The notes under the pieces: model-generated
What the model saw: only the letters and a program-made list of their open reading frames with translations
The model's database searches: none
What the model was told of the DNA's origin: nothing
Shown: positions 10,872 to 47,535 of the stretch, piece by piece
Numbering within the stretch: the stretch's first letter is position 1
How the letters are laid out: the number at the start of each line of letters is the position of its first letter
From: Chloroflexota bacterium
GTDB taxonomy: Bacteria; Chloroflexota; Limnocylindria; Limnocylindrales; CSP1-4
Assembly (NCBI GenBank): GCA_026004015.1
Contig: BPIH01000003.1
Coordinates: forward strand, 62,001-126,000
DNA length: 64,000 nt
Direction of reading: 5' to 3'
Made by a program: the position numbers and the translations under genes

Positions 10872-11982
10872 TCACCCCGTCGGGCCGCCACCTCGCCGAG
10901 GACCTCCCGCAGCCGGGCCGCCCGCTCGCCGTCCAGCGCCCCTCGCCGGACCGCCACCCCGATCTCCCGCTCGGCGAGGACCCGGTAGAGCCCGACCAGC
11001 CCCGGAGCGTGCCGGCCGAGCGCCTCGAGGTGGCGCCGGAGCGTCCCGACGTCGCCCCGCACGATCGGCCCCGTCAGCGCCGCCTCGATCCCGAGGGCTC
11101 GGACGTTCGCCAGCGTCTGCTCGGCGAGCCGGCCGTAGACGGCGAGCGCGCCCGGCCTCGTCGAGACCGGCGACCCGCCCGAGCTCGACGATCCCGTCGA
11201 GGAGGCCGACGAGCCCGCCCGCCGCCAGGACGGCCGCCGCGTGGTACGCCGCCTGCGAGCCCGGCGGCAGCCGCACCGGCACCGCCCCGAGCGCCTCGGC
11301 CATCTCGGCCAGCAGCCCCGCCAGGTCCGGGTCCGCCTCGATCGCCATCGGTCGCCCCGCGGAGCGCCTCGACCGACGCGCTCCACCTCGGCGAACGCGA
11401 CGAGGGGGTGGAACGTCCCCGCCTGGGTCCCCGCCGCCCGGGCCGGCTCGAGGACCTCGGGCCCGAGGGCGCCCGAGGTGTGGACGATCGCCTGGCCGCT
11501 GTACAGCCGGAGGCTTCCCGCCAGAGCCGGCGACCGCGTCGTCGGGGACGCAGAGGACGACGAGCTCGACCTCGTCGAGGACGGCCTGGGCCTCGGCGAA
11601 GGCGCGGGCCCCACCGACGAGCTCGACGAAGCGGGCCCGCCGGCCCGGGATCCCGGCTCGCCACGGCCACGACCGGCCAGCCGGCCCGCGCGAGGGCGAC
11701 CCCGAGGGCCGTCCCGACCGGGCCGGCGCCGACGATCCCGATGAACGGCCGCTCGCCCGGCTCGCTCCGGCGGTGGGGATGGACGTGGTCGCTGGGGTGG
11801 ACGACGTCGCCGTGGCGGTGGAAGCCGGCGGGCGCGTCCGCCTCGTCGGCCCCGGCGGTTCGCCGGGCGGCTCGCTCGGCGGGCGGCAACGGGTCGAGGT
11901 CGACGCCGGCCGCCTCGAGCTCGGCGAGGGCCTCGTCGGTCGGCTCCGGCGGCTCGGGTTCGAGGGCGTCCCAGATCCTCAT
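10872..11982 (-). CDS. Rossmann-fold DUF2520 protein (ProC/TyrA-like dehydrogenase family), frameshifted
   Basis: This encodes an NAD(P)-binding protein of the 'Rossmann-like and DUF2520' family; its reaction is unknown. The nucleotide-binding motif is clear (FIGIVGAGPVGTALGVALARAGWPV). The next parts continue in other frames: SLRLYSGQAIVHTSGALGPEVLEPA, GTFHPLVAFAEVER, then VPVRLPPGSQAAYHAAAVLAAGGLVGLLD, and finally EAALTGPIVRGDVGTLRRHLEAL. At least four frame changes are required. The stop is taken as the TGA at 10872. The ATG at 11982 adds about 70 residues before the Rossmann motif, unusual for the family, so the true start may be later. In many bacteria this gene precedes panC, but no panC is seen here. 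Confidence 0.7.
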
Positions 11983-20095: not shown

Positions 20096-20530
20096 ATGGA
20101 CGAGGGAGGAGGCAGTCATGACACACACACACACACACACCGACAGGGCTTCGTCGCTGACGCGATCGCCGCAGCGGCGTGGCTTGCTCTCGCCACGGGC
20201 ATCGTCGTCGTCGCCGCCCAGCCGACCCGCGCCCTGAGCGGCAACGAGCTTCTTCTCTTCCGTGACGCGGGCAACGGTGCCCTGTATACCTACTGCGACA
20301 GCTCCTCGTCGCCATACGGGCAGCCGGTCCTGTACCTGACCCAGGCAGTCAACTCGCTCGGTGCGTACGGTTGGAACGATGTCGCCTCCGCGTACAAACA
20401 ATCCGGCGGGTGGACGCTGTACGAGAACAACAACTACAGCGGAGCGGCGCTCCAGACCGTGTACACGGGCGACTGCAACCTTGGTTCGCCCGAGAACTGG
20501 AACGATCGCGTCTCCTCTGCCGCTCCGTGA
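20096..20530 (+). CDS. Secreted beta-gamma-crystallin / peptidase-inhibitor I36-like protein with a repeat at its start
   Basis: This encodes a secreted protein with two Greek-key beta-gamma-crystallin motifs. A signal-like hydrophobic stretch (AIAAAAWLALATGIVVVAAQ) is followed by the mature domain. The motifs end in GWNDVASAYK and NWNDRVSSAA, matching the Ca-binding (N/D)(N/D)-x-x-S pattern, and LYENNNYSGAAL is typical of I36/crystallin domains. The ATG at 20096 is in frame but has no ribosome site. The ATG at 20118 has a perfect one (GGGAGGAGG) yet is out of frame because an (AC)10 tract follows it. Loss of one AC unit would put it in frame. Known relatives include the Streptomyces metalloproteinase inhibitor SMPI and the killer-toxin-like protein SKLP. 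Confidence 0.72.
   Translation: MDEGGGSHDTHTHTHRQGFVADAIAAAAWLALATGIVVVAAQPTRALSGNELLLFRDAGNGALYTYCDSSSSPYGQPVLYLTQAVNSLGAYGWNDVASAYKQSGGWTLYENNNYSGAALQTVYTGDCNLGSPENWNDRVSSAAP
20121..20140. repeat. (AC)10 dinucleotide tract directly after a start codon
   Basis: Ten perfect AC units follow the ATG at 20118-20120. Each unit gained or lost shifts the frame of the downstream crystallin-like protein. A simple dinucleotide run this long is striking in a 70% GC genome. Confidence 0.97.
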
Positions 20531-20548: not shown

Positions 20549-20869
20549 TTGGTCGTCTCCCTTCGTACTCTGCGTCGACCGATCGTGCCGATCGTCCTCC
20601 TCGCGGCTCTCGGTCTGTGGCTGGCGGCACGGTCGAACCTCGAAGCCCCGTACGTCTCTTACCGGGGCGAACGTCTACCGGCTACAGAGGCAGGACGGTA
20701 CGTCTGCCACGATCTCGCCCTGCCCGAGATCCGTTGCTTCGATTCGGTCGAAGAGCTCATTCGGGATCTGGATCTCCGCTTCCCCGGGCACGCCGACCGG
20801 TTTCGCCGCCTCTGGCTCGCGACATGGCCTCCCCAACTGATACCCGAACCGGCCAACCCCCGGCCCTAG
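20549..20869 (+). CDS. Small membrane-anchored protein of the crystallin-ABC locus
   Basis: This is an unrecognised 106-aa protein. It starts at TTG 20549 just after a purine-rich GAGTGAGG, 18 bp past the crystallin gene stop. An N-terminal helix ([16 protein letters not shown]) precedes an extracytoplasmic domain with two cysteines ([20 protein letters not shown]). That segment resembles short conserved patches in other secreted actinobacterial proteins, but I cannot name a family. Its position between the crystallin-like protein and the ABC ATPase, and the overlap with the ATPase start, suggest one operon. It could be an immunity or accessory factor; that is inference only. Confidence 0.6.
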
Positions 20870-21756
20870 CCGCGACACAACTCACGAAGATCTTCAAGAC
20901 CCGCTCGCGGTCGGTGGTAGCCCTGGACGACGTCACCCTCGCTGTCCCTTCGGGCGCCATCACCGGTCTCGTCGGACCGAACGGGGCGGGCAAGACGACC
21001 CTCATCCGGTGCTGGGTCGGGTTTGAGCGGCCGACCTCCGGCATTGCCCTCGTCGACGGCCGACCGGCACCGGACGGCGCGACCGATTCGGGGTGGGTGG
21101 CGTATCTCCCACAGCAAACCCGGCTTGTACCGGACGCTGTCGGCCGACGACCACCTCGTCCTGGCCCGAGCCTTGCGGCCGGGCTTCGATGCCGCCGCGG
21201 CGGCTGACTTCCTGGCACGGCGGAGCATTGAGGGCCGCCGGCCCGTCGGTCAGCTCTCGGGCGGCCAGCAGGCCCAGGTCGCCATCGCCATCGCCCTTCA
21301 CGCCGGTGCCACGACGATCCTCCTCGACGAGCCCCTGGCCAGCCTCGACCCCCTTCAGCGCGCCTACCTCTCGCGGACATCAAGGCGACCGCTGCCCGTG
21401 GTGTGACGGTTCTCGTGTCCTCCCACATCGTCGGGGATCTGGAGGGCACCATCGATCGCATCATCGTGCTCCGGTCGGGCCGCGTGATCCTGTCCGACCG
21501 GGTCGGCGATCTCCTCGATGCGCACCGAGTGGCGCCCGGGGGCGTCGTCGCCGACGGCGCCCGTCCCATCGGACCGATCCCGGGCGACGCCGAGTCGGGT
21601 GACCTGCTCTGGGCCCTTGACGCGACGGTATCCGGTCCGACCGCGGACGCCTGGCGGAGACCGACCCTGAACGAGCTCATCCTCGCCTATCTGGCCGCCG
21701 ATCTGCCCGGCGGACGTGGCAACGTCGACGGGCCGCCGATGAGGACCGGACGATGA
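20824..21756 (+). CDS. ABC transporter ATPase of the crystallin locus, two frameshifts
   Basis: This is the nucleotide-binding subunit of a DrrA/CcmA-type ABC exporter. Walker A is [10 protein letters not shown] in the first frame. A +1 insertion near 21110 leads to the second frame with [19 protein letters not shown] and Walker [14 protein letters not shown] 1-bp deletion near 21373 leads to the third frame, beginning [15 protein letters not shown] and continuing through the C-terminal regulatory part to 21756. The corrected length is about 310 aa, normal for the family. The start overlaps the small membrane protein by 46 bp, and the stop overlaps the permease start (ATGA). Indels are probably technical, but decay of an accessory locus cannot be excluded. 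Confidence 0.82.
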
Positions 21757-22690
21757 TCGAGGCGGCGAAGATCTATGTCTTCCGAACGGCCCGCCTCGAG
21801 CTCCTGCTCGCTGTGGTCGCGGTCGGGGCACTCACCGCGGCACAAGCTTGGACGGCCCTCCAGGTGGTCGGCGTCGCGCTGGATCCGGGTGTCTCCTCCA
21901 GGTCACCCAAGCCTGCGACCCGAACCTCGTCGTCCAGTACAGCTCGGCCTTCGTGAACGGCCCCATCATCCAGGCGGCCGGGCTCGGCGTCGCCGTCGGC
22001 GTGGGAACCCTCCTCGGAACGATGGCCGTCGCGAGTGAGCTGGAGTCGGGCACCGTTCAGACGGCGTGGTGGCTCGACCCGAAACGGAGCCGCTGGCTCA
22101 GGTCGCGGTTGGTCGCCTTCGGCACCGCCACCCTCGTCCTCCTCCTGGTGCTCGCCGCTACCTCACACTGGTTCGAGGCGCTCCGGCGCCCGATGTTCGA
22201 CCCCGGCGCGAGCTTCCAGGCCTACCGCTTCCGAGGGCCGGCTCTCCTCGGCGCCGGGCTCGCCGCCTTCGCGGTCGGATCCTTCGTCGGCGCCGTCGTG
22301 GGACGGACGCTGCCGTCGATGGTCATCGCCGTCGTTGTAGCGCTCGGCCTCCTCGGAGTGAGTCATGCGGTCGTCTTTCCGAACCTGGCGGAGATCGTCC
22401 CCCTCCTCTCGAGCGCCGCCGACACCCCCGACGCGATCGTTGCGAGTCGCTATCTCGATGCGTCGGGTTCGGTTCTCACGCTCGACATGGTCAAGGCCCG
22501 CTCGCCCTTCGACACCTCGAAGCAAGACTTCTGGGACTGGGCCAGCACGACCTTCCGGGAGGTTGCCGCTGGGTACGAGGGGCGTTCCTATTGGACCGTG
22601 GCACTCCGCGAGTTCGCCCTCTGGCTCGCCACCGCCGCGGCTCTCATCGGGGCCACGTGGAGCGTGGTGAGGCGTCGGCGCCCGACGTAG
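21753..22690 (+). CDS. ABC-2-type permease of the crystallin locus, one frameshift
   Basis: This is the membrane partner of the preceding ATPase. The N-terminus ([20 protein letters not shown] with a first helix) is read in one frame to LDPG, and from there CLLQVTQACDPNLVVQYSS onward in another. A single G missing from a GGGG run near 21890 explains the break. The corrected 312-aa product has about six hydrophobic segments in the ABC-2 pattern, including IIQAAGLGVAVGVGTLLGTMAV, ATLVLLLVLAATS, LLGAGLAAFAVGSFVGAVVG and VIAVVVALGLLGVSHAVVF, and a long extracytoplasmic loop before the last helix. The substrate is unknown; the crystallin-like protein has its own signal peptide, so it need not be the cargo. 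Confidence 0.8.
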
Positions 22691-40342: not shown

Positions 40343-41291
40343 CTAGGCGGCGAGGCGTTCGGCGGCCCGAAGGCGGGCGCTTCGGGCTCGGGGGTTCGTG
40401 AGGACTTCGACGGAGCCGGGACGAAGGGGGCGTCGGGTCAGCGGCCGAAGGCGCGGCCGGCGACCGCAGACGCAGACCGGCGCCTCCGACGGGCAGGTGC
40501 AACCGCGCCGTTCGGCGGCGATGAAGCGCTTGACGATCCGGTCCTCGAGGGAGTGGTAGGAGAGGACGACGAGCCGACCGCCGGGTCGGAGGAGATCGAC
40601 GGCGGCGACGAGCCCCTCCCGGAGCGCCTCGAGCTCGTCGTTGACGGCGATCCGGAGGGCCTGGAAGACGCGGGTCGCCGGGTGGATCCGGCGCCGGCCG
40701 CGCACGGGCGCCGGGACGGCCGCCTCGACGAGGGCGGCGAGCTCCTCGGCCCGCTCGATCGGCGCCGTCCGCCTCGCTTCGACGATGGCGCGGGCGATCC
40801 GATCGGCGAAGGGCTCCTCGCCGTAGCGCCGAAAGAGGGTCCGGAGCTCGCGCTGGCCGAGGTTCGCCAGGAGCTCCGCCGCCGGCGCCCCCCGGCTCGG
40901 GTCGAAGCGGAGATCGAGGGGGCCGCCGGTTCGGATCCCGAAGCCGCGGCTCCGGTCGGCGAGCTGATCCGACGACAGCCCGAGATCGAAGAGGCAGCCT
41001 TCGACGGCGGTGAAGCCGGCCTCTGGGGCGACTCGCCCGAGGTCGCGGAAGTTCGCCCGTCGGAGGACGAGGCGATCCTCCGAAGCGAGCGAGGCGGGCC
41101 CGGGTCCGCTCGATGGCGGCCGGGTCGGCGTCGAGGCCGAGGACCCGACCATCGGGGCTACTCGCCTCCAGGATCCGCTCGGTGTGCCCACCGCCACCGA
41201 CGGTGGCGTCGATGTGCCGGCTGCCGGGGACCGGCGCGAGGATTTCGACGACCTCGTTCGCCATGACCGGCAGGTGCCCGTCCGTCACCAC
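40343..41291 (-). CDS. rsmH: 16S rRNA (cytosine(1402)-N4)-methyltransferase, one frameshift
   Basis: This SAM-dependent methyltransferase (MraW) modifies C1402 of 16S rRNA. The first 65 codons, from GTG 41291 after GGAGG, contain GHLPVMANEVVEILAPVPG, the SAM motif DATVGGGGHTERIL and LGLDADPAAIER in one frame. A single indel near 41095 shifts to the frame of the track ORF with FDLGLSSDQLADRSRGFG, FRRYGEEPFADRIARAIVEAR, VFQALRIAVNDELEAL and VVLSYHSLEDRIVKRF. The corrected length of about 315 aa is normal. It follows mraZ after 58 bp, as in nearly all dcw clusters. Confidence 0.94.

Positions 41292-45777: not shown

Positions 45778-47535
<1,758 letters not shown>

Follow-up and report, generated by a model that had tools for sequence, protein, structure and literature searches.

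Host-adapted pathogens provide the best-studied cases of repeat-based switching. The mmyCImod gene of Mycoplasma mycoides is out of frame with an (AG)12 tract and in frame with (AG)10, and a clone with a different repeat number is known (PMC3498834). In Haemophilus influenzae, phase variation of hifA/hifB acts through the promoter spacer, with TA repeats between the −10 and −35 elements, and a poly-G tract in the promoter spacer has the same role for Neisseria porA (PMC3899988). Both kinds of device considered below, coding dinucleotide repeats (PMC3498834) and promoter-spacer repeats (PMC3899988), are therefore already known.

The DNA analysed here is a 64 kb stretch of an uncultured environmental genome (hereafter the window), in which a small gene for a putative secreted protein carries an AC repeat behind its probable start codon. 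The gene is followed by a partner ORF and then by an ABC transporter operon.

20096–20098, plus strand: alternative ATG, in frame with the domain at 10 AC units, giving the acidic N terminus MDEGGGSHD
20104–20112, plus strand: Shine–Dalgarno sequence GGGAGGAGG, 5 nt 5′ of the ATG at 20118
20118–20120, plus strand: probable true start ATG, served by the ribosome site; joins the domain frame at 9 or 12 AC units
20121–20140, plus strand: (AC)10 simple sequence repeat, codons 2–8 (like the Shine–Dalgarno element, read directly from the sequence)
20141–20233, plus strand: signal-peptide coding part, by translation HRQGFVADAIAAAAWLALATGIVVVAAQPTRA
20234–20530, plus strand: beta-gamma-crystallin-like domain and stop codon (TGA at 20528–20530), from profile, structure-sequence and homologue matches
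20549–20869, plus strand: partner ORF, membrane or secreted protein, related to the domain found at the N terminus of the crystallin homologues
20851–21756, plus strand: ABC ATPase, with two frameshifts at about 21115 and 21362–21385
21753–22690, plus strand: ABC permease, with one apparent frameshift at about 21882–21947

The ribosome site GGGAGGAGG of ATG 20118 is perfect and the (AC)10 tract starts directly after the codon; every coordinate that the first-pass annotation had given for this arrangement was confirmed in the sequence. Translation from ATG 20118 with 8, 9, 10, 11 or 12 AC units gave products of 12, 136, 39, 14 or 138 amino acids, showing that the number of units sets the reading frame of the product. 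Across this range the signal peptide and crystallin domain were reached only at 9 and 12 units, as had been claimed, and the N terminus then reads MTHTHTHRQGFVADAIAAAAWLALATGIVVVAAQPTRA, a plausible signal peptide followed by the crystallin-like domain. At the present length of 10 units the domain frame is open from ATG 20096, again as annotated, and it contains GTG 20090 and TTG 20048 in addition; inspection of the sequence 5′ of ATG 20096 identified no good ribosome site. A crude signal test was positive from ATG 20096 or from the (AC)9 form and negative from ATG 20118 at (AC)10.

We propose that the crystallin locus is a slipped-strand contingency gene, a reading to which we give a probability of roughly 0.48. 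According to this model, translation would begin at ATG 20118, pass through the AC repeat (Met-Thr-His-Thr-His...) and continue into the signal peptide and crystallin-like domain. Unit numbers divisible by three (9 or 12) would yield the full protein of 136 or 138 residues, and 8, 10 or 11 units would lead to an early stop at 12, 39 or 14 residues, such that replication slippage by one unit would turn the protein on or off. Use of ATG 20118, secretion of the crystallin-like protein and changes of tract length in cells are predictions of the model, and the tract is known at one length, (AC)10, from one assembly.

The tract itself is unusual. It is the sole dinucleotide tract of at least five units in the window (GC 73%), where a first-order Markov estimate gives 2e-11 such tracts by chance. 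A second (AC)9 was absent from the 1.37 Mb of the genome searched, and ATG(AC)8 was absent elsewhere from 177 class genomes and 400 phylum genomes. The earlier claim of rarity thus stands in that the tract is unlikely by chance and its ATG(AC)8 context unique among the genomes searched, but it has to be qualified by other long dinucleotide repeats in the same genome. The genus is represented by one genome, the source genome itself; an orthologous locus was not found in the class genomes or in genome_contigs, and none of the class homologues (30–40% identical) carries an AC-like repeat. We rejected the idea that the AC repeat is the spacer of a promoter (ATGACA-17 nt-CGACAG): its second hexamer does not resemble a −10 element, and no in-frame start codon lies between it and the mature domain.

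The other repeats of the genome fall into a consistent pattern. Non-CG dinucleotide tracts of at least five units number eight in 1.32 Mb here versus none in 1.06 Mb of relatives, and apart from the AC tract all are AG/GA. Every AG run of at least 10 nt (seven of seven) sits 0–8 nt 3′ of TTGAC(A/G) on the same strand; the runs end 13–20 nt behind this hexamer, six of the seven at 17–20, and the clearest promoter reads TTGACA-17 nt-GATAAT. A search for the TTGAC-AG pattern returned seven sites in this genome, three in 176 other class genomes and none in the reversed control.

AG promoters outside the window: L014:9994, L138 275 (minus strand), L059:8909, L059:10464, L052:8641, L052:13483 and L135:11321

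The first gene downstream of an AG promoter was signal-peptide-like in seven of seven cases, one of them subtilisin-like, a figure that is somewhat generous, as these genes were judged and chosen by eye after the pattern was known. An automatic rule found a signal-peptide-like gene behind six of the seven; the background in the genome is 12% of called genes, or 19% with any early start allowed. At several of these loci a second small lipoprotein gene follows. L059:8909 and L059:10464, 1.5 kb apart, have a common leader, GGCTGAAGCATGGGGG, which points to duplication of the leader or to a family of genes. The AC tract and the seven AG repeats all lie at exported-protein genes, and repeats at the 5′ end of such genes therefore appear to be a trait of this genome. 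The AG repeats are a parallel to the AC tract rather than the same device, being located in promoters and not after a start codon. What makes the AC repeat a good candidate translational contingency switch is mainly that the genome places long dinucleotide repeats at exported-protein genes, and not the frame in which it was assembled.

The product, as annotated, was a beta-gamma-crystallin. Its domain of about 98 residues is matched by solved gamma-crystallins at E=8e-5 (gamma-crystallin D) and by the Ciona beta-gamma-crystallin at E=7e-4, in keeping with that assignment, but the match is weak by profile, with Pfam PF00030 below its cut-off (E=0.0021). A single-sequence structure model of the protein had a mean pLDDT of 42 and was uninformative about a Greek-key beta-sandwich fold. 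Homologues occur in six class relatives (L004, L006–L010), and that of L004 passes the cut-off of the inhibitor I36 profile PF03995. The protein thus resembles bacterial beta-gamma-crystallin and peptidase inhibitor I36 proteins (PF00030, PF03995) in being small and putatively secreted, and shares conserved GWND...SS repeats with L004 and L006–L010; it differs in falling below the Pfam cut-offs. Complete homologues in the relatives have an extra N-terminal domain with the motif C-H-x4-6-P-x-[IV]-R-C-F, which in the window is a separate gene: the partner ORF matched the homologues by blastp at E values of 6e-9 (L006), 1e-8 (L008) and 2e-8 (L010). Because the two domains are fused in one protein in relatives and occupy adjoining genes here, their sequences suggest that the crystallin-like and partner ORFs probably act together.

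What weighs most heavily on the frame of the AC tract is the state of the assembly. Protein alignment revealed 33 frameshift sites over 140 kb of aligned DNA, versus one over 120 kb of three relatives put through the same procedure; per aligned kb this is about 0.24 versus 0.008, a rate some 30 times higher. Likewise, a codon-usage frame scan detected 21 strong switches within the window and another 22 in 100 kb from the rest of the genome, versus six in about 260 kb of relatives. Core genes are affected: the RsmH/MraW family gene is broken (PF01795 profile positions 3–67 and 74–308 in different frames), as are an SdhA-like gene (PF00890 positions 1–42 and 56–123 in different frames) and a DUF2520 gene of the window, and a 1062-residue ORF that we take to be aconitase-like from gene order, without a profile match, is spread over three frames by two +1 shifts (12847 and 13966).

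Frameshifts in conserved genes of the window: 11143–11154, 12847, 13966, 21115, 21362–21385, 41068–41082 and 47380–47395

Because no living cell would tolerate this whole set of lesions, we infer that most of them must be assembly errors. Homopolymer compression was considered as a sign of a bad assembly and rejected, as run lengths resemble those of relatives. The high frameshift load may also lower the completeness estimate of the assembly.

Errors of this kind are likely to fall in dinucleotide repeats, and the (AC)10 may be a misassembled (AC)9 or lack one base nearby. An alternative to switching is accordingly that translation starts at ATG 20118 and runs through a fixed tract that is truly (AC)9, or is followed by a missing base (for example CCC read as CC just 3′ of the repeat). 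The genome-wide frameshift counts, the frame switches in codon usage, the broken RsmH/MraW, SdhA-like and aconitase-like genes and the three frameshifts of the ABC operon (21.1–21.95 kb, all within 1.8 kb of the AC tract) all point this way, and a fixed nine-unit tract would look the same as a switch locus. Nevertheless, such an error accounts for the frame and not for the rarity of the tract or for the repeats at exported-protein genes; moreover, all 18 precisely placed indels are +1 or −1, but gain or loss of an AC unit alters the length by two. We regard a fixed tract as the main rival explanation, although on balance less likely than a switch. In either case, in so indel-rich an assembly the out-of-frame AC tract is uninformative about an OFF state. 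The annotated contingency gene is therefore retained for its layout, its rarity and the repeats at other secreted-protein genes, but its argument from the out-of-frame start is not.

Were the assembly correct at this point, the (AC)10 form could also be functional as it stands, with constitutive translation from ATG 20096 or from GTG 20090, possibly leaderless. With ten units nothing interrupts this frame, and it still includes the signal-peptide segment. Yet ATG 20096 is preceded by no ribosome site, signal peptides do not typically begin with an acidic stretch such as its MDEGGG, and the frame would enclose a near-perfect ribosome site that goes unused, which makes this explanation unlikely. 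Less probable still, and in our view quite improbable, is that the crystallin gene and the ABC operon are pseudogenes of a decaying island. Positions 15.2–22.9 kb of the window have no counterpart in an otherwise collinear relative (G005), where unrelated genes occupy about 2.3 kb instead, and the ABC ATPase aligns with an intact 339-residue homologue in three successive segments divided between two frames (query 49–134, 135–216 and 213–328), which with the permease makes three frameshifts in the ABC genes. These are better read as errors, however, because frameshifts are equally dense in the core genes of the same assembly. The contingency gene thus remains our preferred reading of the crystallin locus.

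The AG-spacer arrangement extends beyond this lineage. When genome_contigs was searched for TTGACN{0,8}(GA)7, the matches listed came from many phyla (L157–L236). They include 73 usable sites, picked by the pattern itself in a scan run without a reversed control. Among the matches listed, a signal-peptide-like gene lies within 250 nt of 23 of the 73 sites; for random positions the share is 6.6%, and for the other TTGAC sites of this DNA 3.5%. A TANNNT element stands at the tract end in 27 of the 73, versus 8.6% of random positions. Three Caldisericales loci among them, from related genomes (L177, L203, L225), have near-identical flanks and repeat runs of 16, 26 and 28 nt. More tentatively, and as a conjecture on which we would not yet bet, the source genome may carry a set of exported-protein repeat switches, comprising one start-codon AC repeat and at least seven AG promoter spacers, and the TTGACA-(AG)n-TATAAT type may be a widespread, little-noticed class of phase-variable promoter that serves secreted-protein genes in uncultured bacteria.

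The open-licence papers searched contained no account of repeat-based switching in the lineage. If the proposal is correct, a GC-rich uncultured lineage with several repeats at its exported-protein genes, together with the AG-spacer promoter in many phyla, would mean that environmental bacteria commonly hedge their bets on secreted proteins through replication slippage. The case is equally a warning that reading frames in indel-rich metagenome assemblies are no evidence for phase variation.

Compared with the described systems, the crystallin locus is most like mmyCImod, in that a dinucleotide tract lies in the coding region and its unit number sets the frame. It differs in encoding a putative secreted protein rather than a methyltransferase, and in being known with one tract length only, from an indel-rich assembly. 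The AC tract, unlike the repeats of hifA/hifB and porA, does not lie in a promoter of that type. It is the seven AG repeats that resemble those promoter-spacer systems, standing behind a TTGAC box and in one case forming exactly TTGACA-17 nt-GATAAT; they depart from hifA/hifB and porA in consisting of AG units, in occurring at many loci and in belonging to an uncultured environmental genome, where they are known from sequence alone.
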